Below are positions 18,562-45,307 of a DNA stretch of 45,310 bases, in pieces (position 1 is the stretch's first letter; the number at the start of each line of letters is the position of its first letter). The notes below the pieces were generated by a model that saw only the letters and a program-made list of their open reading frames with translations, did not search any database and had not been told where the DNA came from. This DNA comes from a virus, in IMG/VR virus record IMGVR_UViG_3300006789_000045, positions 1 through 45,310 of that record. One strand, 5' to 3'. The translations under genes were made by a program, and so were the position numbers.

Positions 18562-19740
18562 TTGCTTTTCCAGTTGCTTGATAAAAAAAATGAATGCAAT
18601 TCTCTATACATAGATGGACATTTTAGAGATGATTATAAGCAAGTCGACCTTACTAGCACTTGGGCTCCGACCTTGGCTTTAAGTGACTGCGATTTGGAGT
18701 ATGCCAGCATATGGGCTCACGGAAAGACGTTAAGTGATTGCTGTCCGGATGAACTCAAAGAAGAATGGGGATATATCAACAAGAGAATCGCTGCTTTTGT
18801 AAACTCTTTTAAGAACAGTAAAGTTGACTTAGACGATGTGTGCTTTTATGATCTATTACCAGAAAATTTCTTAAAGCAGTTCTGTGCTTTAAAAAATAAA
18901 ATCAGCGCATGCGTATTCGAACTGGAGACGAAGCCCATGAACCATGATTTTATGGTAGAGCTTATTCTTTTTCTTAAGAAGTTAGAATCGCGCCCCCTGT
19001 TGGTTAACTATAAAAATCTAGACATGACAAACAGCCAAGTTAGAAATATATTTTCAAAAGTTAAGAATTCCCCTAGGTATGTCAGATACAATCCATGGGG
19101 GACTGTCACCGGTAGGCTAACTACCACAAAAAATAGCTTTCCCATCCTGACTTTGAACAAGGAGTTAAGACCGGTGCTGCAGCCAAGAAACGACTGCTTT
19201 GTGGAGCTGGATTTCAATGCTGCTGAACTTAGAGTTCTGTTTTCTCTTCTAGGCCAGGACCAGCCGGATGGGGACATTCATGAATGGATTGCAGCCAACA
19301 TATTTGATAATAAATATACTCGCGACCAGAGCAAGAAGAAAGTTTTTGCGTGGCTCTATAACCCCAAGGCCAAAAACAAAAAATTGAATAATTATCTAAA
19401 TCGCGACGCGCTGTATGATAAATACTATAGTAATGGTATTGTACAGACACCCTTCGCCCGCGACATAGCTGTTGATCAAGATAAAGCTGTGAACTACTTA
19501 ATACAGAGTACAACAAGCGACCTTTTTTTAACTTCAGCTATTGAGGTTGAAAAAGCACTAGAGGGAAAGACCTCTTCGGTAAGTTTTTGTATCCACGATA
19601 GCTTGGTAATTGATTATAGCAAGGAAGACAGAGAGCTACTGCCCAACTTGATGAAACGATTTTCAGATACAAAGCTCGGCTACTTCAAAACAAATCTAAG
19701 TATGGGTAAAAATTTCGGTACGATGAGGAAAATAACATGA
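18562..19740 (+). CDS. Compact family-A DNA polymerase-like protein (392 aa)
   Basis: The C-terminal ~220 residues carry PolA palm and fingers motifs in order: TGRLTTTK at ~184-190; motif A VELDFNAAELRVLFSLL with Asp217; an O-helix-like RDQSKKKVFAWLYNPKA at ~254-270 (compare R...AK...FG..YG); NYLIQSTTSDLF at ~321-332 (compare N.P.QGTAAD); and motif C SFCIHDSLVI with His345-Asp346. Family A enzymes are usually 600-900 aa. Here the N-terminal ~170 residues show no 3'-5' exonuclease motifs. The start is uncertain: TTG at 18562 is the first in-frame start after a stop, while an ATG at 18557 is out of frame. It overlaps the next gene by ATGA. Confidence 0.8.
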   Translation: MLFQLLDKKNECNSLYIDGHFRDDYKQVDLTSTWAPTLALSDCDLEYASIWAHGKTLSDCCPDELKEEWGYINKRIAAFVNSFKNSKVDLDDVCFYDLLPENFLKQFCALKNKISACVFELETKPMNHDFMVELILFLKKLESRPLLVNYKNLDMTNSQVRNIFSKVKNSPRYVRYNPWGTVTGRLTTTKNSFPILTLNKELRPVLQPRNDCFVELDFNAAELRVLFSLLGQDQPDGDIHEWIAANIFDNKYTRDQSKKKVFAWLYNPKAKNKKLNNYLNRDALYDKYYSNGIVQTPFARDIAVDQDKAVNYLIQSTTSDLFLTSAIEVEKALEGKTSSVSFCIHDSLVIDYSKEDRELLPNLMKRFSDTKLGYFKTNLSMGKNFGTMRKIT

Positions 19741-20570
19741 ACATAGTTGGTCTAGGGAACGCCGGCTGCCAGATAGCCAAAACCTTTCAAAATTATGAAC
19801 AATATCAAGTTTTTTGCATTGATGTAGAGGATAAAGGATATCCTACTTTCTTACAGGTAGAACATCAAAATAGTCACGAGGATTATGAAAAAAACTATAA
19901 GAAATTAAAACTATCAAAATGTAAAGGAGAAACAACCTTTATTCTATGCGGTACTGGCAATATAAGCGGCTGTGCACTGAGAGTTTTGCAGCAGATAAAA
20001 GACAGCCCTGTTACTGTGATATATATTAAGTCAGATCTAGCAAATTTAAGCCATGAGCAAAAGCTGAAGGACCGAGCTACGTTTGGCATTTTACAACACT
20101 ATGCTAGGTCAGCATTGCTAAAAGATGTATATATCGTCTCCAATCAACTGGTTGAGAGGGCTATTGATGGTATCTCTATCAAGTCTTATTGGAGTGATAT
20201 TAATAATATAATTTCCAGTACATATCATATGTTAAATGTTTTTGATAATACGGAACCGCTGTTAACGACAGCATCACCGCGGCCTATCACAGCAAGAATA
20301 GCCACACTTGGAGTGGTAAACTACGAAACCAATAAAGAAAATATGTTTTACGATCTACAGTATCCTCGATTAAAAAAATATTTTTATGGTATCAACGAAA
20401 ACTCAATAGAGGAAGATAAAGAGATTCTACACAAAATTCGAGCTTTCGTAAACCAAAAAGCCGAAAAAAATATTGCGGCGAATTTTTCCATATTTTCAAC
20501 TTCCTATGAACACAACTACATTTATTCTACGCATTATGCATCTTTCATACAAGAACAAAAAATAGAATAA
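19737..20570 (+). CDS. Putative FtsZ/tubulin-superfamily GTPase (277 aa)
   Basis: Element order matches FtsZ/tubulin. There is an N-terminal glycine loop IVGLGNAGCQIA (GxGxxG, residues 5-10) and a strand plus signature-like loop TFILCGTGNISG (67-78; compare GGGTGTG). Then come strand VTVIYIKSD, helix SHEQKLKDRATFGILQHYAR, VYIVSNQLVERAIDGISI (131-148; compare FtsZ LITIPNDKLL.....GISLLDAF) and a long H7-like helix. After ~180 there is a smaller domain with ARIATLGVVNYE. The glycine loop is degenerate (C-G-T-G) and a clear T7-loop NxDxxD is not seen, so GTPase activity is unproven. Phage relatives such as PhuZ and TubZ build filaments that position DNA. It is coupled to the family-A polymerase gene. 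Confidence 0.55.
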   Translation: MNIVGLGNAGCQIAKTFQNYEQYQVFCIDVEDKGYPTFLQVEHQNSHEDYEKNYKKLKLSKCKGETTFILCGTGNISGCALRVLQQIKDSPVTVIYIKSDLANLSHEQKLKDRATFGILQHYARSALLKDVYIVSNQLVERAIDGISIKSYWSDINNIISSTYHMLNVFDNTEPLLTTASPRPITARIATLGVVNYETNKENMFYDLQYPRLKKYFYGINENSIEEDKEILHKIRAFVNQKAEKNIAANFSIFSTSYEHNYIYSTHYASFIQEQKIE

Positions 20571-20611: not shown

Positions 20612-20645
20612 CGGTCGGAAGATTAGCCGACTGTACTATAGCTAA
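20612..20645 (+). promoter_or_regulatory. Leader hairpin / possible pseudoknot of gp32
   Basis: CGGTCGG (20612-20618) pairs with CCGACTG (20627-20633), with one G-T wobble. Loop bases TTAG (20623-20626) can pair with CTAA (20642-20645), making an H-type pseudoknot 21 nt before the ATG. T4 gene 32 mRNA carries a leader pseudoknot where gp32 binds to repress its own translation; similar autoregulation here is inference. Confidence 0.45.
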
Positions 20646-20666: not shown

Positions 20667-21404
20667 ATGGGTATTGATTTAGCAAAGATGAAGGCAAAGC
20701 GCGACGCCTTGGAAAGTCGCGGCGGTCAGAGCGTTTTTTGGCGCCCGGAAGATGGAGAACAAACAATTCGTATTGTTCCTACTCCTGATGGTGACCCGTT
20801 TAAGGAATATTGGTTCCACTATAATTTGGGTTCAAATCCGGGCTTTTTGAGTCCGAAGAAGAATTTTGGTGAAGATGACCCACTAAATGACTTTGTGCGC
20901 CAGCTATATAAGGATGGTTCGGATGAGTCTATCAAGATGGCCAAGGACCTATCTGCTCGTCAGCGCTTCTTTGCGCCCGTTCTCGTACGCGGCGAAGAAG
21001 AAAAGGGTGTACGACTATGGGGTTTTGGAAAGACTGCCTACAAGGAGCTGTTGAATTTAGTACTTAACCCTGAGTATGGTGATATCACTGACGTTAACGA
21101 GGGTACTGATTTGACCATTAATTATGGTAAGCCCCCTGGCGCGCAGTTCCCTCAGACTACCATTACACCTCGTCGCAAATCGTCGCCCATGACGAAGGAT
21201 GAGGAGAAGACTGCGCTGCTTTTGGATCAGATTCCTAGCTTTGATGATGTCTTTGATCGAAAGAGCCCACAGCAGGTTCAGGTTATGCTAGACGAGCACC
21301 TTCTTAGTGGAGAGGATGCAGAGGGCGTCTCTTCTGAGACGAGCAAGTATAATAATTCAGAGACTTCGGTCGTGGACAAAGCTTTTGCTGAGCTTCTAGG
21401 ATAG
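20667..21404 (+). CDS. 32: Single-stranded DNA-binding protein, gp32-like (245 aa)
   Basis: Coats ssDNA during replication and recombination. The N-terminal basic segment (LAKMKAKRDALES), then GQSVFWRPEDGEQTIRIVPT and later FFAPVLVRGEEEKGVRLWGF followed by GKTAYKELL, match the gp32 OB-fold core (compare F......G...IR.LP and Y...V...... ..G..... ..G..I...I). The acidic tail ends in VVDKAFAELLG, the type of C-terminus used to recruit partner proteins. The Cys-rich zinc site of T4 gp32 is absent, as in several marine relatives. T4 gp32 is 301 aa. It has its own promoter and a structured leader and precedes uvsX. Confidence 0.88.
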   Translation: MGIDLAKMKAKRDALESRGGQSVFWRPEDGEQTIRIVPTPDGDPFKEYWFHYNLGSNPGFLSPKKNFGEDDPLNDFVRQLYKDGSDESIKMAKDLSARQRFFAPVLVRGEEEKGVRLWGFGKTAYKELLNLVLNPEYGDITDVNEGTDLTINYGKPPGAQFPQTTITPRRKSSPMTKDEEKTALLLDQIPSFDDVFDRKSPQQVQVMLDEHLLSGEDAEGVSSETSKYNNSETSVVDKAFAELLG

Positions 21405-30948: not shown

Positions 30949-33900
30949 TTGGAAAGAATTGAATCTAAAATCCCATTTGTTGGGTTGCACGCTCACAGCG
31001 TCGCAGGATCCGTATTCGACGGATTCGGATATCCGCAAGATCATATGGATTTTGCTTACGAGAACGGCATGAACGCGCTAGCGCTTACCGACCATGGTAA
31101 TATGAACGGTATGTCACATCAAGTGCTCCACGCCGAGAAGATGAGGGCACAAGGCAAAAACTTTAAGCCCATCTTCGGCGTCGAAGCATATTTTATACCC
31201 TCTATTAAAGAATGGAAAGAGGAATATGAAAAGGTCAAGCTAGACAAGAAACAAGCTAGAAAAATTATTAATGATACGGATAAGGTTGAAATTGAAGATG
31301 AGGCCTCTTCGAAGAGCAAATCTAAAAGTAAGATTAATTCGTATGGGCACTTGGTATTGTTAGCTAAGAACCAGGTTGGTCTTAACAACATATTTAAGAT
31401 TGTATCCGACTCACATCAGGGTGACAACTTCTATCGGAAACCACGTCTGGATTATGACCTACTTAAAAAGTATGGAGAGGGGATTATTGCGTCTTCTGCT
31501 TGCATTGGCGGTGTATACGCTCAGAATTATTGGGATAATCGAGAAAGTGGCCCCGAAGCTATTTTAGGATCCATGCGCACAACAACACAACGCATGATCG
31601 ATTGTTTGGGGGACCGCTGGTATGGAGAGCTGCAGTGGAACAACATACCTGAGCAACATGAATTAAATAAGTATGTTATCCAAATGCACGAAGAATTTGG
31701 CATTGATCTCATATCAACAGCAGATAGTCATTATCCGAGCCCCGATGCTTGGAAGGATCGTGAGCTTTATAAAAGGCTTGGATGGCTAGGCGGCAAAAAC
31801 AAGCCGGGCTATATGAAAGAAGAGTTGCCAGCAAGTGTTGAAGAAATTGGGTACGAACTTTACCCCAAAAATGGCGATCAGATGTGGGAGTCATACAAGA
31901 AATACGCAGAAAAATGTGGTGTAGAATATGATGACGCTATAATTTTCGATAGTTTAACAGCAACACACTGGATTGCTCATGAGCTTATCGAAGATTTTAT
32001 GCCAGATGCCACTGTTCGTTTGCCGGGATTTCTGGTACCAGAAGGCGCCTGTGCTAAAGAAACCTTAGTTGGGGAGGCCGTCAACGGTCTTCGTAGGGTG
32101 TCCTTGCAAGATAACAAAGAATACGTTGACAGATTAAAGCACGAATTGACTGTTATTAATGAAAGGGGGTTTAGCAAATACTTTCTTACCATGAAGGCAA
32201 TTGCCGATACCGCTAATAAACATATGCTCTCCGGCCCCGGACGCGGGTCTGCTGCCGGCTCGCTTGTAGCGTATGTACTTGGTATTACCCAGGTTGATCC
32301 AATCAAGTATGGATTGCTTTTTAGTAGGTTTTTGAGATCAGACACAGCTGATTATCCGGATATTGATTATGACGTCAGCGATGCTTTTGGATTAAAAGAA
32401 ATATTAGCTGCAGAGTGGGGAGAAACCACAGTTGTACCAATTTCAAACTTTAATACGCTGCAGCTTCGTTCGCTCATTAAGGACATCGGCAAATTCTATG
32501 ATGTGCCATGGCTAGAAGTTAACACAGTGACAAGTAAAATGGTTAGAGAAGCAATGCCAAAAGCCAAACAAGACCATGATATTAAATCAGGTGTTTACGT
32601 ACCAACTTTTGAAGAAGTTATGAAGTACTCTGAGTCATTGATCAGCTTTTTGCAAAAATATCCGCACATTAAGACCCACGTGGAGGCACTGGTGGGGCAG
32701 ATCCGTTCGACTAGTCGCCATGCTGGTGGTGTTGTAATTGGGGAAGACTTAGATAGACATATGCCACTGATTTGTTCTAAGGGCGTAATACAAACACCAT
32801 GGTCTGAAGGACAAAACGTACGCCACTTAGAACCGCTTGGATATATTAAGTTTGATTTGTTGGGTCTTTCAACTCTTGAAATGATCCAAAGTGCTGTCGG
32901 CCATGTGCTCAAAAGACACCACGGAATTGATAATCCGACTTTTGCTAATATTAAGGACTATTACGACAGTACGCTGCATCCGGATGTACTGGATTTAAAT
33001 GATAAAAAGGTATATAGAAATATCTTTCAGAAAGGCAAGTTCGCTGGCATTTTTCAGTTCACTAATTCCGGCGCCCAACGTTTGAGTATAAATTCCAAAC
33101 CTAATGATATTATTGATATTTCTGCTATCACCTCAATTTATCGGCCCGGGCCACTTGGAGCCGGCGTCGATAAAGCATATATCAAGGCTAAGAAGAACAA
33201 GAGCGCCAATTATCTTATTGATGCTGTTGAAGAAGTAACCAAGGAAACATATGGTTTTCTTATTTTCCAGGAGCAAATTGCTTTGTTGGCCCACAAACTA
33301 GGAGAAAATATCTCTCTGGAGGAAGGCAACAAATTACGCAAGCTTCTAACCAAAAAGGGCACAGGTAAGGGTTTAGAAGAGAAAGAAGTAATTAAAGAAA
33401 AATTTGTTAGAGGGTGCCTCAATAAATCGATACCAGCTGATACAGCCAAAAGCCTTTGGCAAAATTTTGAATATTTCTCAGGCTATGGTTTTAATAAATC
33501 GCATGCAGTATCTTATTCTATTTTATCTTACCAGTGCGCTTGGCTATTCAATTATTACCCTGAGTGCTGGATGGCTGCTTTCTTAGACAAGGAGCCTGAA
33601 TCACGTAAAGAGGCTGCTATTAGCTTGGCTCAGAAATTTGGCTTTGAGATTGAAAACATCAATATTAATACTTCGACCAGACAATGGGAGATCAGTGATG
33701 ATGGTAGGACCCTTATTCAACCTTTTAGCTCAATTAAGGGCTTGGGTGACAAAGCAGTCGACCAAATTATGCAAAACAGGCCATTTGAAAAGATCGAAGA
33801 TATCCTCTTTAACGAGGAAATTATCCATGCCAAGTTGAACAAGAAAGCCCTGGATGTGTTGTGCCGCTCCGGCGCGCTAGACTGCATCGTTGATGATCGA

Positions 33901-34377
33901 TTTAATGGGTGCAAACATTTTTGGATGGCGTGTATACAAGACAAGCCAAAAAACCAAAAGAAGCTAGATGAGAATATTGAAATTTATTCGCCGGAAGAAG
34001 ACTTCACCCCCGAGGAAAAGATTGAGTATATTTCTGATTTAACTGGTATGTTTCCTTTCGATCTGGTCTTGACACAAGAAATTAGAGATTCTATTGGAAG
34101 AAATTGTGTTCCAGCTCTAGGCAACTGGGATAAGGATCTGGGTGTTGCTTGGTTTATACCAAGAGAAGTCATCCCCAAGAAAACCAAAAATGATAAACCA
34201 TACTGGATTCTTAAGGTGATAGATAGCACCTCAACGATGACCACAATTAGGTGCTGGGGGATTAAAGAATACGACCAAATTCATTTGAACCGACCTTATG
34301 CAGCCAAGCTGGACCACAACAAAGACTGGGGCTTTAGTACTCGCTCAGTTAGGCACACATTTAAATTACTAGGATAA
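30949..34377 (+). CDS. dnaE: DNA polymerase III alpha subunit, DnaE (family C, 1142 aa)
   Basis: Full-length bacterial-type replicative polymerase. The PHP domain begins at once (FVGLHAHSVAGSVFDG with His14/His16, then LALTDHGNMNG). The palm has GPGRGSAAGSLVAYVLGI (429-446), YPDIDYD with catalytic Asp471 and Asp473, and GYIKFDLLGLSTL with the third Asp at 636 (compare E. coli 401, 403, 555). Further on are SIYRPGPLGAG, YGFLIFQEQI and GYGFNKSHAVSYSILSYQCA. An OB-like C-terminus follows. E. coli DnaE is 1160 aa. The start is TTG at 30949 with GAGAGG 5 nt upstream; any later ATG would remove the PHP histidines. No clamp or clamp loader is in the window. Confidence 0.95.
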   Translation: MERIESKIPFVGLHAHSVAGSVFDGFGYPQDHMDFAYENGMNALALTDHGNMNGMSHQVLHAEKMRAQGKNFKPIFGVEAYFIPSIKEWKEEYEKVKLDKKQARKIINDTDKVEIEDEASSKSKSKSKINSYGHLVLLAKNQVGLNNIFKIVSDSHQGDNFYRKPRLDYDLLKKYGEGIIASSACIGGVYAQNYWDNRESGPEAILGSMRTTTQRMIDCLGDRWYGELQWNNIPEQHELNKYVIQMHEEFGIDLISTADSHYPSPDAWKDRELYKRLGWLGGKNKPGYMKEELPASVEEIGYELYPKNGDQMWESYKKYAEKCGVEYDDAIIFDSLTATHWIAHELIEDFMPDATVRLPGFLVPEGACAKETLVGEAVNGLRRVSLQDNKEYVDRLKHELTVINERGFSKYFLTMKAIADTANKHMLSGPGRGSAAGSLVAYVLGITQVDPIKYGLLFSRFLRSDTADYPDIDYDVSDAFGLKEILAAEWGETTVVPISNFNTLQLRSLIKDIGKFYDVPWLEVNTVTSKMVREAMPKAKQDHDIKSGVYVPTFEEVMKYSESLISFLQKYPHIKTHVEALVGQIRSTSRHAGGVVIGEDLDRHMPLICSKGVIQTPWSEGQNVRHLEPLGYIKFDLLGLSTLEMIQSAVGHVLKRHHGIDNPTFANIKDYYDSTLHPDVLDLNDKKVYRNIFQKGKFAGIFQFTNSGAQRLSINSKPNDIIDISAITSIYRPGPLGAGVDKAYIKAKKNKSANYLIDAVEEVTKETYGFLIFQEQIALLAHKLGENISLEEGNKLRKLLTKKGTGKGLEEKEVIKEKFVRGCLNKSIPADTAKSLWQNFEYFSGYGFNKSHAVSYSILSYQCAWLFNYYPECWMAAFLDKEPESRKEAAISLAQKFGFEIENININTSTRQWEISDDGRTLIQPFSSIKGLGDKAVDQIMQNRPFEKIEDILFNEEIIHAKLNKKALDVLCRSGALDCIVDDRFNGCKHFWMACIQDKPKNQKKLDENIEIYSPEEDFTPEEKIEYISDLTGMFPFDLVLTQEIRDSIGRNCVPALGNWDKDLGVAWFIPREVIPKKTKNDKPYWILKVIDSTSTMTTIRCWGIKEYDQIHLNRPYAAKLDHNKDWGFSTRSVRHTFKLLG

Positions 34378-39968: not shown

Positions 39969-41549
39969 ATGCAGAAAGTTTATGCTGAAGGTCTAGAACT
40001 ACAGCGAAAAGTAATGTCCGGGGTTAACAAGTTGGCCGACTATGTTGCCGCTACCTTGGGCCCAAAAGGTAGAAATGTGATTCTACACAAAAAAGAAGCC
40101 AATCCAATTATCACAAAGGACGGAGTTACGGTAGCTAATTTTGTAGATCTATCAGATCCCTTTGAACAGGCCGGCGCACAGATATTAAAGCAGGTCGCAG
40201 CTCAGACGAATTCTATGGCTGGAGATGGTACCACCACTTCCACTGTTTTGGCTAGAGACATACTCAGAAATAGCCAAAAATATTTGATTGCTGGTTGCTC
40301 TCCCGTTGAGGTCAAGAAGGGGATGGACAAAGCGGTTAAAGAGGTCACTGATATGGTCAGAGATATGGCAAAGCCAGTTGACTCGATGCAAGACATAGAA
40401 TACGTTGCAACTGTCTCAGCTAATGGAGATGCCTCTATCGGAAGTCTGATATCATCAGCTGTTGACAAGGCTGGTCATGATGGGTCAATATTAATTGAGA
40501 ATGGCAAGTCTGTTGATACGAGTTTGGATTTAGTGGAGGGTTTTCGTTTTAATTCTGGCTATTTTGCTCAGGCGTTTGTAAATGATCAACGTAGAAATTC
40601 TATAGTTTACGAGGACGCTATTATACTGGTGACCGACTATAAGGTTGAACATGTTAAGACAATATTGCCTGTTTTGGAATTAGCTGCCCGAGAAGCGAAG
40701 CCATTAATAATAGTTGCTGAGCAAGCAGAGGGCCAGGCCCTAGCAGCATTGATAATGAACACAGTCCGCGGCAGCATGAAAGTCGCTGCTGTTAAGGCCC
40801 CCGGGTACGGCGCGGAGAGACACAGCAACATGAAAGACTTGTGTTTGGCTACTGGTGCTAATTTTATTAGTAGAGCTTCCGGCCGGAAGCTTGAAGAAGT
40901 CAAGCTAGTTGATTTTGGCGTATGCAAGAGAATTGAAGTATTGAAAAACTCTACAACCATCATGGGAGGCCAAGCAGACTGGGAGGCGATTGATAAAAAA
41001 ATTGAGTCACTCAAGAGTGAGATCAAACAAACTGACAGTGTTGAAGAGTGCCGCAAACTTCAGATGAGAATCACTCGCCTGTCCAGCGGCGTTGCTGTCA
41101 TAAAGGTCGGTGGGTTGACTGAGATTGAGATGACTGAAAAGAAGCACAGAATCGAAGATGCCTTAGAAGCAGTAAAGGCCGCACAAGAGGGCGGTATCGT
41201 ACCTGGAGGCGGCACTGCCCTGTTACGCTGTCGCGACTTCGCAATTCAAGCCGAGAACGAAGATCAAAGAATAGGCGCAGATATTATTCGTAAATCTCTG
41301 GAGTCGCCCATACGTCAGATGTCAACCAACGCTGGCAAAAGCGGAGACCTAATTATCAACAACATCGAAGCTCTTCTTTATGATGATTACGGTTGGGATT
41401 TTAAAACCGACGAGCGCGTTGATATGATAGCTGCAGGGGTAGTCGACCCAGCTAAGGTAGCAATCATAGCTATTCAAAATGCCGTTTCGGTATCATCGAC
41501 ACTTCTTACAACCAGCAACGCCATAGTGGAGACTAGCAATGAAAGTTAA
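39969..41549 (+). CDS. groEL: Chaperonin GroEL (526 aa)
   Basis: ATP-driven folding chamber. Residues KLADYVAATLGPKGRNVILH, ITKDGVTVA, AGDGTTTSTVLAR (GDGTTT 85-90, ATPase Asp86), AAVKAPGYGAERHSNMKDLC, IVPGGGTALLRC and VVDPAKV are the GroEL core motifs in order. Length is slightly under E. coli GroEL (548 aa), and the C-terminus ends in ETSNES without the GGM repeat tail. The sequence is divergent from ordinary bacterial GroEL, consistent with a phage lineage. It has its own promoter and pairs functionally with the phage GroES at 28305. It overlaps the next gene by 11 nt. Confidence 0.95.
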   Translation: MQKVYAEGLELQRKVMSGVNKLADYVAATLGPKGRNVILHKKEANPIITKDGVTVANFVDLSDPFEQAGAQILKQVAAQTNSMAGDGTTTSTVLARDILRNSQKYLIAGCSPVEVKKGMDKAVKEVTDMVRDMAKPVDSMQDIEYVATVSANGDASIGSLISSAVDKAGHDGSILIENGKSVDTSLDLVEGFRFNSGYFAQAFVNDQRRNSIVYEDAIILVTDYKVEHVKTILPVLELAAREAKPLIIVAEQAEGQALAALIMNTVRGSMKVAAVKAPGYGAERHSNMKDLCLATGANFISRASGRKLEEVKLVDFGVCKRIEVLKNSTTIMGGQADWEAIDKKIESLKSEIKQTDSVEECRKLQMRITRLSSGVAVIKVGGLTEIEMTEKKHRIEDALEAVKAAQEGGIVPGGGTALLRCRDFAIQAENEDQRIGADIIRKSLESPIRQMSTNAGKSGDLIINNIEALLYDDYGWDFKTDERVDMIAAGVVDPAKVAIIAIQNAVSVSSTLLTTSNAIVETSNES

Positions 41550-45018: not shown

Positions 45019-45106
45019 GGCCCTGTGGTGGAATTGGCATACACATCAGACTTAAAATCTGACGCCTATACTGGGCTTGCGGGTTCGAGTCCCGCCGGGG
45101 CTACCA
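45019..45106 (+). tRNA. tRNA-Leu (anticodon UAA)
   Basis: Class II tRNA with all arms: acceptor GGCCCTG/CGGGGCT (two G-U pairs), D-stem GTGG/CAC, anticodon stem TCAGA/TCTGA with loop CTTAAAA (anticodon TAA), a long variable arm (CGCCTATACTGGGCT), T-stem GCGGG/CCCGC with TTCGAGT loop. Discriminator A and CCA (45104-45106) are encoded. It reads UUA, which suits an AT-leaning phage. Confidence 0.93.
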
Positions 45107-45130
45107 GGATACTACATAAGGAGTAGAATT

Positions 45131-45229
45131 ATGAACAACATGCATCATTTAGAAAGCGATAAGTTCTTTACAAGGATTATGATTGGCTTGACCATTGGTA
45201 CTGTAATTTTTGTGCTATTTGGACTATAA
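45131..45229 (+). CDS. Tiny membrane protein between the tRNAs (32 aa)
   Basis: A 12-residue polar N-terminus (MNNMHHLESDKF) then one hydrophobic segment (IMIGLTIGTVIFVLFGL). AAGGAG lies 7 nt upstream of the ATG. The ribosome site and clear membrane segment support it despite its size. Function unknown. Confidence 0.5.
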   Translation: MNNMHHLESDKFFTRIMIGLTIGTVIFVLFGL

Positions 45230-45232
45230 TTT

Positions 45233-45307
45233 GCTGGCGTAGCTCAATGGCAGAGTGTCACGTTGCCAACGTGAATGTTGTCAGTTCGAATCTGACCGCC
45301 AGCTCCA
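45233..45307 (+). tRNA. tRNA-Gly (anticodon GCC)
   Basis: Acceptor GCTGGCG/CGCCAGC is perfect; anticodon stem TCACG/CGTGA with loop TTGCCAA (anticodon GCC); T-stem GTCAG/CTGAC with TTCGAAT loop. Discriminator T followed by CCA (45305-45307). The D-arm begins AGCTCAATGG. It reads GGC/GGU. Confidence 0.93.

Follow-up and report, generated by a model that had tools for sequence, protein, structure and literature searches.

The 45,310-base IMG/VR virus record IMGVR_UViG_3300006789_000045, which we analysed whole and call the window, encodes a protein of the FtsZ/tubulin superfamily (tub) whose gene is coupled to that of a small family A DNA polymerase (mini-polymerase). Tub is a widespread branch of the superfamily that was previously unlabelled, having no Pfam, NCBIfam or PHROG assignment. 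We read it, at a little under an even chance, as a nucleotide-binding, hydrolysis-poor and non-cytomotive tubulin-fold partner of the mini-polymerase. The initial annotation had proposed the open reading frame and its ATGA coupling to the polymerase gene, and both are real:

18562..19740, + strand: mini-polymerase (family A), 392 aa, TTG start, the constant upstream partner of tub
19737..19740, + strand: ATGA start/stop overlap, the tub ATG with the polymerase TGA, giving translational coupling
19737..20570, + strand: tub, tubulin/FtsZ-fold protein, 277 aa, ATG start

The tub ATG sits over the polymerase TGA in the sequence ...ACATGAAC..., and the same 4-nt overlap is found in 44 of 57 related loci having both genes (near-duplicate contigs counted).

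The fold was assessed by structure prediction and by profile comparison. The AlphaFold2 model of tub, made from a 40-sequence alignment, has a pLDDT of 94.3 and a pTM of 0.92. Its top 50 Foldseek matches in the PDB are FtsZ, TubZ and tubulin (as part of a doublet microtubule) and nothing else, with E values from 7e-12 to 6e-10 and TM scores, normalised by query, of 0.61-0.72; the best viral model matches are FtsZ-like phage proteins. With hhalign, a 62-sequence tub profile aligns to FtsZ over 158 columns (score 41.4, E 8.6e-5) and to PhuZ over 96 columns (score 40.0, E 8.4e-5), and the maxima in 100 column shuffles were 19.8 and 21.1, respectively. The earlier 40-sequence alignment had given E 0.01 to FtsZ, which the more diverse 62-sequence alignment brought to 9e-5. 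Across 11 virus records, an intact PF00091 gene was not found, and sub-threshold weak matches fell on tub itself only. Together, the model, the Foldseek matches and the profiles make the assignment to the FtsZ/tubulin superfamily secure, with two domains and a central helix H7, and the fold claimed in the initial annotation stands, its own proposed check by model and Foldseek having turned out positive.

That tub is instead some other Rossmann-like NAD/FAD-binding protein merely resembling tubulin is very improbable. Its GxGxxG stretch does draw weak Pfam TrkA_N matches, seen in 18 of the 62 members and at best E 9e-4, short of the family cut-off, but Pfam Tubulin is also weakly matched, in 3 of 62, and the full-length fold matches among the PDB top 50 are to tubulin/FtsZ proteins only. 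The Rossmann control profiles, TrkA and 2-hydroxyacid dehydrogenase, aligned to tub over 17-73 columns with E 0.001-0.004, shorter and weaker than the FtsZ alignment.

In the model, a GTPase-like domain (about residues 1-150) is followed by H7 (151-170) and a reduced C-terminal domain (188-268). The motifs had been claimed to appear in FtsZ order, and T1, CGTGNISG, the SNQLVERAIDGISI block (residues 135-148), H7 and the second domain are indeed present in that order, with conservation and shuffle results beyond chance. The main elements are:

19737..19766, + strand: T1 phosphate loop MNIVGLGNAG, aligned to FtsZ GVGGGG
19947..19970, + strand: degenerate T4 'signature' loop CGTGNISG, residues 71-78, aligned by hhalign
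20142..20144, + strand: N136, the T6 base-contact asparagine, equivalent to E. coli FtsZ N165 and kept in 58/62
20202..20204, + strand: N156 in H7, a base-contact position equivalent to the FtsZ N186/D187 region and kept in 59/62
20235..20294, + strand: end of H7 and next loop, NVFDNTEPLLTTASPRPITA, residues 167-186, where FtsZ has T7 NVDFAD plus H8

Within T1, GLGNAG spans residues 5-10, with G5, G7 and G10 conserved in 60, 62 and 59 of 62 sequences. T4 reads G-x-G-x-[IV]-S-G (G72, G74, S77 and G78 in 58, 48, 48 and 49 of 62); it is two residues shorter than FtsZ GMGGGTGTG and does not fit the canonical signature GGGTG[T/S]G, so the earlier guess of a degenerate signature was correct. Because this signature can be missing from divergent superfamily members, its absence lowers the case for a canonical member, not that for the fold. 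Tub does have both the base-contact asparagine expected in T6 and the polar residue expected in H7. Across 62 diverse relatives, G7, Q120, R124 and S125 never vary, and G5, G10, G72, N136 and N156 are nearly invariant; the conserved residues specific to the family are Q120, R124, S125, H164-M165, T255, Y257, Y263 and Q272. Three loci (L006 6001-6852, also L007 and L019) carry an in-frame tandem duplication, LEQIKNNE, in helix H4.

Further elements of FtsZ look different in tub. FtsZ acids D209 and D212 are present in 31/31 of the compared FtsZ set, and the NxDxxD motif has no conserved counterpart in tub: the E173 position holds 22 E and 12 D, and the D170 position 10 D and 8 E (n=62). We rejected the tub 'NVF', which hhalign puts on FtsZ 'NVDF', as a candidate T7, since the model keeps these residues inside H7. 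Substituting these acids in S. aureus FtsZ (D210N, D213N) suppresses its assembly (PMC8936486). The T3 region, judging from the alignment, is replaced relative to FtsZ. DSSP of the model gives no helix from H7 to the next strand, nor between the first two C-terminal strands, so H8 and H9 seem to be missing and the C-terminal domain trimmed. The modelled chain ends at its last strand, leaving no linker, no C-terminal tail and no FtsZ-type C-terminal peptide.

Tub is none of FtsZ, PhuZ and TubZ. It is like FtsZ in fold (TM 0.61-0.72 over the query, top 50), T1 loop, T6 and H7 asparagines and motif order, and unlike it in its shorter signature loop, its missing NxDxxD and C-terminal linker/peptide, its C-terminal domain of about 90 aa, apparently without H8/H9, and in being a polymerase-coupled phage gene. 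Divergent FtsZ paralogues such as FtsZl1 and FtsZl2 (PMC2875224) resemble tub as superfamily members defined largely by context, and some FtsZ paralogues are without motifs important for FtsZ-tubulin function (PMC2875224); these paralogues differ in being cellular, FtsZl1 being linked to membrane remodelling (PMC2875224). The best viral-model match, an uncultured Caudovirales FtsZ-like protein (A0A6J5RW92 in BFVD; E 1.4e-12, TMq 0.75), is 452 aa long and only 14% identical to tub.

Superfamily members generally polymerise, and the initial annotation pointed to PhuZ- or TubZ-like positioning of DNA or capsids. A cytomotive or static filament of this kind would position replicating phage DNA or the replisome, with the polymerase linkage serving to anchor a replication factory. 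The tubulin fold and the kept base-contact asparagines agree with this, our first profile search matched PhuZ better than FtsZ, tub is present on contigs of 94-186 kb, and hydrolysis-dead PhuZ/tubulins can yield static filaments (PMC7950403), a point that also tells against the partner reading. Like tub, the PhuZ of phiKZ-like jumbo phages is phage-encoded and has the tubulin fold, the profile match covering T1-T4 (E 8e-5). However, PhuZ has a C-terminal helix and an acidic tail, the latter present in 11/11 PhuZ compared and required for polymerisation (PMC7950403), and tub has neither; its T7 acids are unconserved, its T4 loop is shortened and its T3 region replaced. phiKZ gp39 has no annotated polymerase adjacent. 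Among partners of the PhuZ nucleus, no multisubunit RNA polymerase was found in 8 possibly incomplete tub records by a search with positive controls, nor any chimallin by one that had no positive control. TubZ, a plasmid/phage partition protein, shares the fold (B. cereus TubZ ranks 4, E 1e-11), but tub is without a C-terminal extension or an adjacent TubR-like gene: its neighbours are the polymerase and a single-strand DNA-binding protein, and no small same-strand ORF adjoins it in the window. With these features and the linkage to a DNA polymerase, a positioning filament appears unlikely, though it is the most serious competitor of the partner reading.

The mini-polymerase itself is recognised by Pfam (PF00476, E 4e-16), and in Foldseek its model (pLDDT 92.6) matches Klenow-type fragments, Pol nu and apPol (the apicoplast Pol) at E 1e-13. 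The invariant residues are D217 (motif A), R254, K258 and Y266 (motif B) and H345-D346 (motif C); motif C is HDS rather than HDE, and the catalytic residues are otherwise kept.

Wherever the flank suffices, tub lies downstream of this polymerase. It does so in 133 of the 135 loci having the polymerase, and the other two end 466 and 9 nt past the polymerase gene. An enlarged set comprised 196 loci with both genes, on the same strand, and 12 viral contigs with tub only; all 12 begin at most 361 nt from tub, so that the polymerase would lie off the contig. These loci were retrieved by either protein, the best 80 per scan by similarity, and the contigs are fragments, so highly divergent polymerases without tub are under-sampled in these counts. 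The linkage persists in loci with insertions of 0.3-2.3 kb between polymerase and tub, and no polymerase-tub gene fusion was found. In two loci, an ORF that by eye is MazG/pyrophosphohydrolase-like lies between the two genes (L042 1190-1520, L054 9665-10010).

The two proteins also appear to diverge together. The highest correlation of pairwise distances is that between polymerase and tub, 0.60-0.67 (partial 0.44-0.49), and the partial correlations are 0.05-0.18 for tub and the single-strand DNA-binding protein and 0.175 for the polymerase and a neighbouring 441-aa gene, all of these genes being neighbours; as pairwise distances are not independent, the signal is suggestive only, and as neighbouring genes share their history, it is not proof of contact between polymerase and tub. 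The linkage suggests that here the tubulin fold is tied to DNA copying, not filament building.

Two cultured phages from outside the clade help to place this linkage. A related polymerase occurs in Flavobacterium phage immuto and Microcystis phage Mel-JY01, in modules of similar order (SSB, UvsX, exonuclease, helicase), but the gene that follows it is not tub; different small proteins, of 151 and 129 aa, are encoded there instead:

NC_055915, 1-2318 (L257): slot protein locus of immuto
PP395634, 50397-52063 (L259): slot protein locus of Mel-JY01

By eye, these slot proteins (P0001, P0003) resemble each other in LVHRKKESNT[LM]YTIN. A slot that is kept behind the polymerase while its occupant differs would fit a polymerase-associated role, and the two phages indicate that not every such polymerase needs tub; theirs is the type of tub-less polymerase that our similarity-based retrieval under-samples.

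The pair had been assigned to the late block, and in fact tub stands at a junction, with baseplate genes on one side and replication genes on the other. Upstream of the pair lie genes for the head, tail and baseplate, among them those for the major head protein, the sheath and the baseplate hub, together with 954-aa and 441-aa proteins without assigned function. Downstream of tub come a gp32-type single-strand DNA-binding protein (SSB), UvsX/RecA, dCMP deaminase and a 5'-3' exonuclease, and further on DnaB helicase, ribonucleotide reductase and a 1142-aa PolIII-type DNA polymerase:

20667..21404, + strand: gp32-type SSB (PF08804 E 1.5e-12, phrog_1192 E 9e-25)
30949-34377: large PolIII-alpha-like DNA polymerase (phrog_405 E 1e-227)

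From this gene list the phage encodes a second, larger DNA polymerase besides the small one coupled to tub. Because the window also encodes the PolIII-type polymerase, a separate 5'-3' exonuclease and an SSB, the mini-polymerase is probably an accessory enzyme. The window further contains a phage-encoded GroEL (39969-41549; phrog_5725, E 2.5e-134) and two tRNA genes (45019-45304).

FtsZ inhibitors of phage origin are known, and with its FtsZ-like fold tub could be a host-takeover decoy, binding the host's FtsZ to prevent division, its place beside the polymerase being a chance of operon history. We consider this improbable: it leaves the constant linkage and the correlated divergence with the polymerase unexplained, and tub adjoins baseplate genes and is not among small early genes.

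The intergenic region between tub and the SSB gene holds an element of its own:

20612..20633, + strand: covarying hairpin with a 7-bp stem and an 8-nt loop, then the conserved TACTATAGC (to 20643)

In 26 loci with this hairpin upstream of the gp32-type SSB gene, 99.5% of cells are paired and 5/7 pairs are changed on both sides; stems slid along the alignment as a control were at most 45% paired. No Rfam match reached the gathering score. By analogy with T4 gene 32 (PMC535899), the hairpin may be a leader for autoregulation, and a pseudoknot of its loop TTAGC with GCTAA is possible in some members. We rejected TACTATAGC as a repeated phage promoter: the window has one exact copy, and others are at chance level.

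Sequence searches of Pfam, NCBIfam, PHROG and the PDB with tub returned nothing meaningful, and 50,697 phage records held no recognisable relative; no cultured-phage or plasmid relative was found. In IMG/VR, relatives rose from 14 to 49 and then to at least 596 confirmed viral places (the 62-sequence alignment), and identity to the window tub runs from 77% to 30% in the alignments. The contigs carrying tub include some of 94-186 kb. The clade is a large group of uncultured, mostly marine bacterial viruses, 'marine' being taken from the general provenance of the contigs and cultured relatives, not from metadata. A copy in a WOR-3 MAG (L060, CP070664.1) was considered as chromosomal or prophage and rejected: it lies in an N-bounded phage block between bacterial genes and is probably a misassembly. 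That block spans the 441-aa gene to UvsX.

How might a tubulin fold serve a polymerase? In the partner reading, tub stands for a new, reduced family of the superfamily, and translational coupling would deliver it in step with the polymerase. Tub probably binds guanine nucleotide, using the glycines retained in T1 and T4 together with N136 and N156. The T7 acids that trigger hydrolysis in the neighbouring subunit are the ones it is without, so tub would serve as a subunit or tether of a stable kind, which may be gated by nucleotide or oligomeric, presumably without dynamic polymerisation. In contact with the small polymerase it could aid processivity, or target the enzyme to SSB-coated DNA in gap filling, a replication step that would run beside the separate 5'-3' exonuclease. 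It is tempting to go further and, a shade more tentatively than for the partner reading itself, to see here a tubulin-superfamily protein that has given up forming filaments and become an obligate subunit or regulator for a minimal DNA polymerase throughout a large clade of uncultured phages. What probability the named readings leave over belongs to roles we have not thought of.

Tub adds a small two-domain form to the tubulin superfamily and ties the fold to a DNA polymerase. The polymerase-plus-tubulin pair is short and lends itself to direct expression and testing. Should the two proteins prove to be physical partners, this would be a clear instance of DNA replication putting a cytoskeletal fold to new use.
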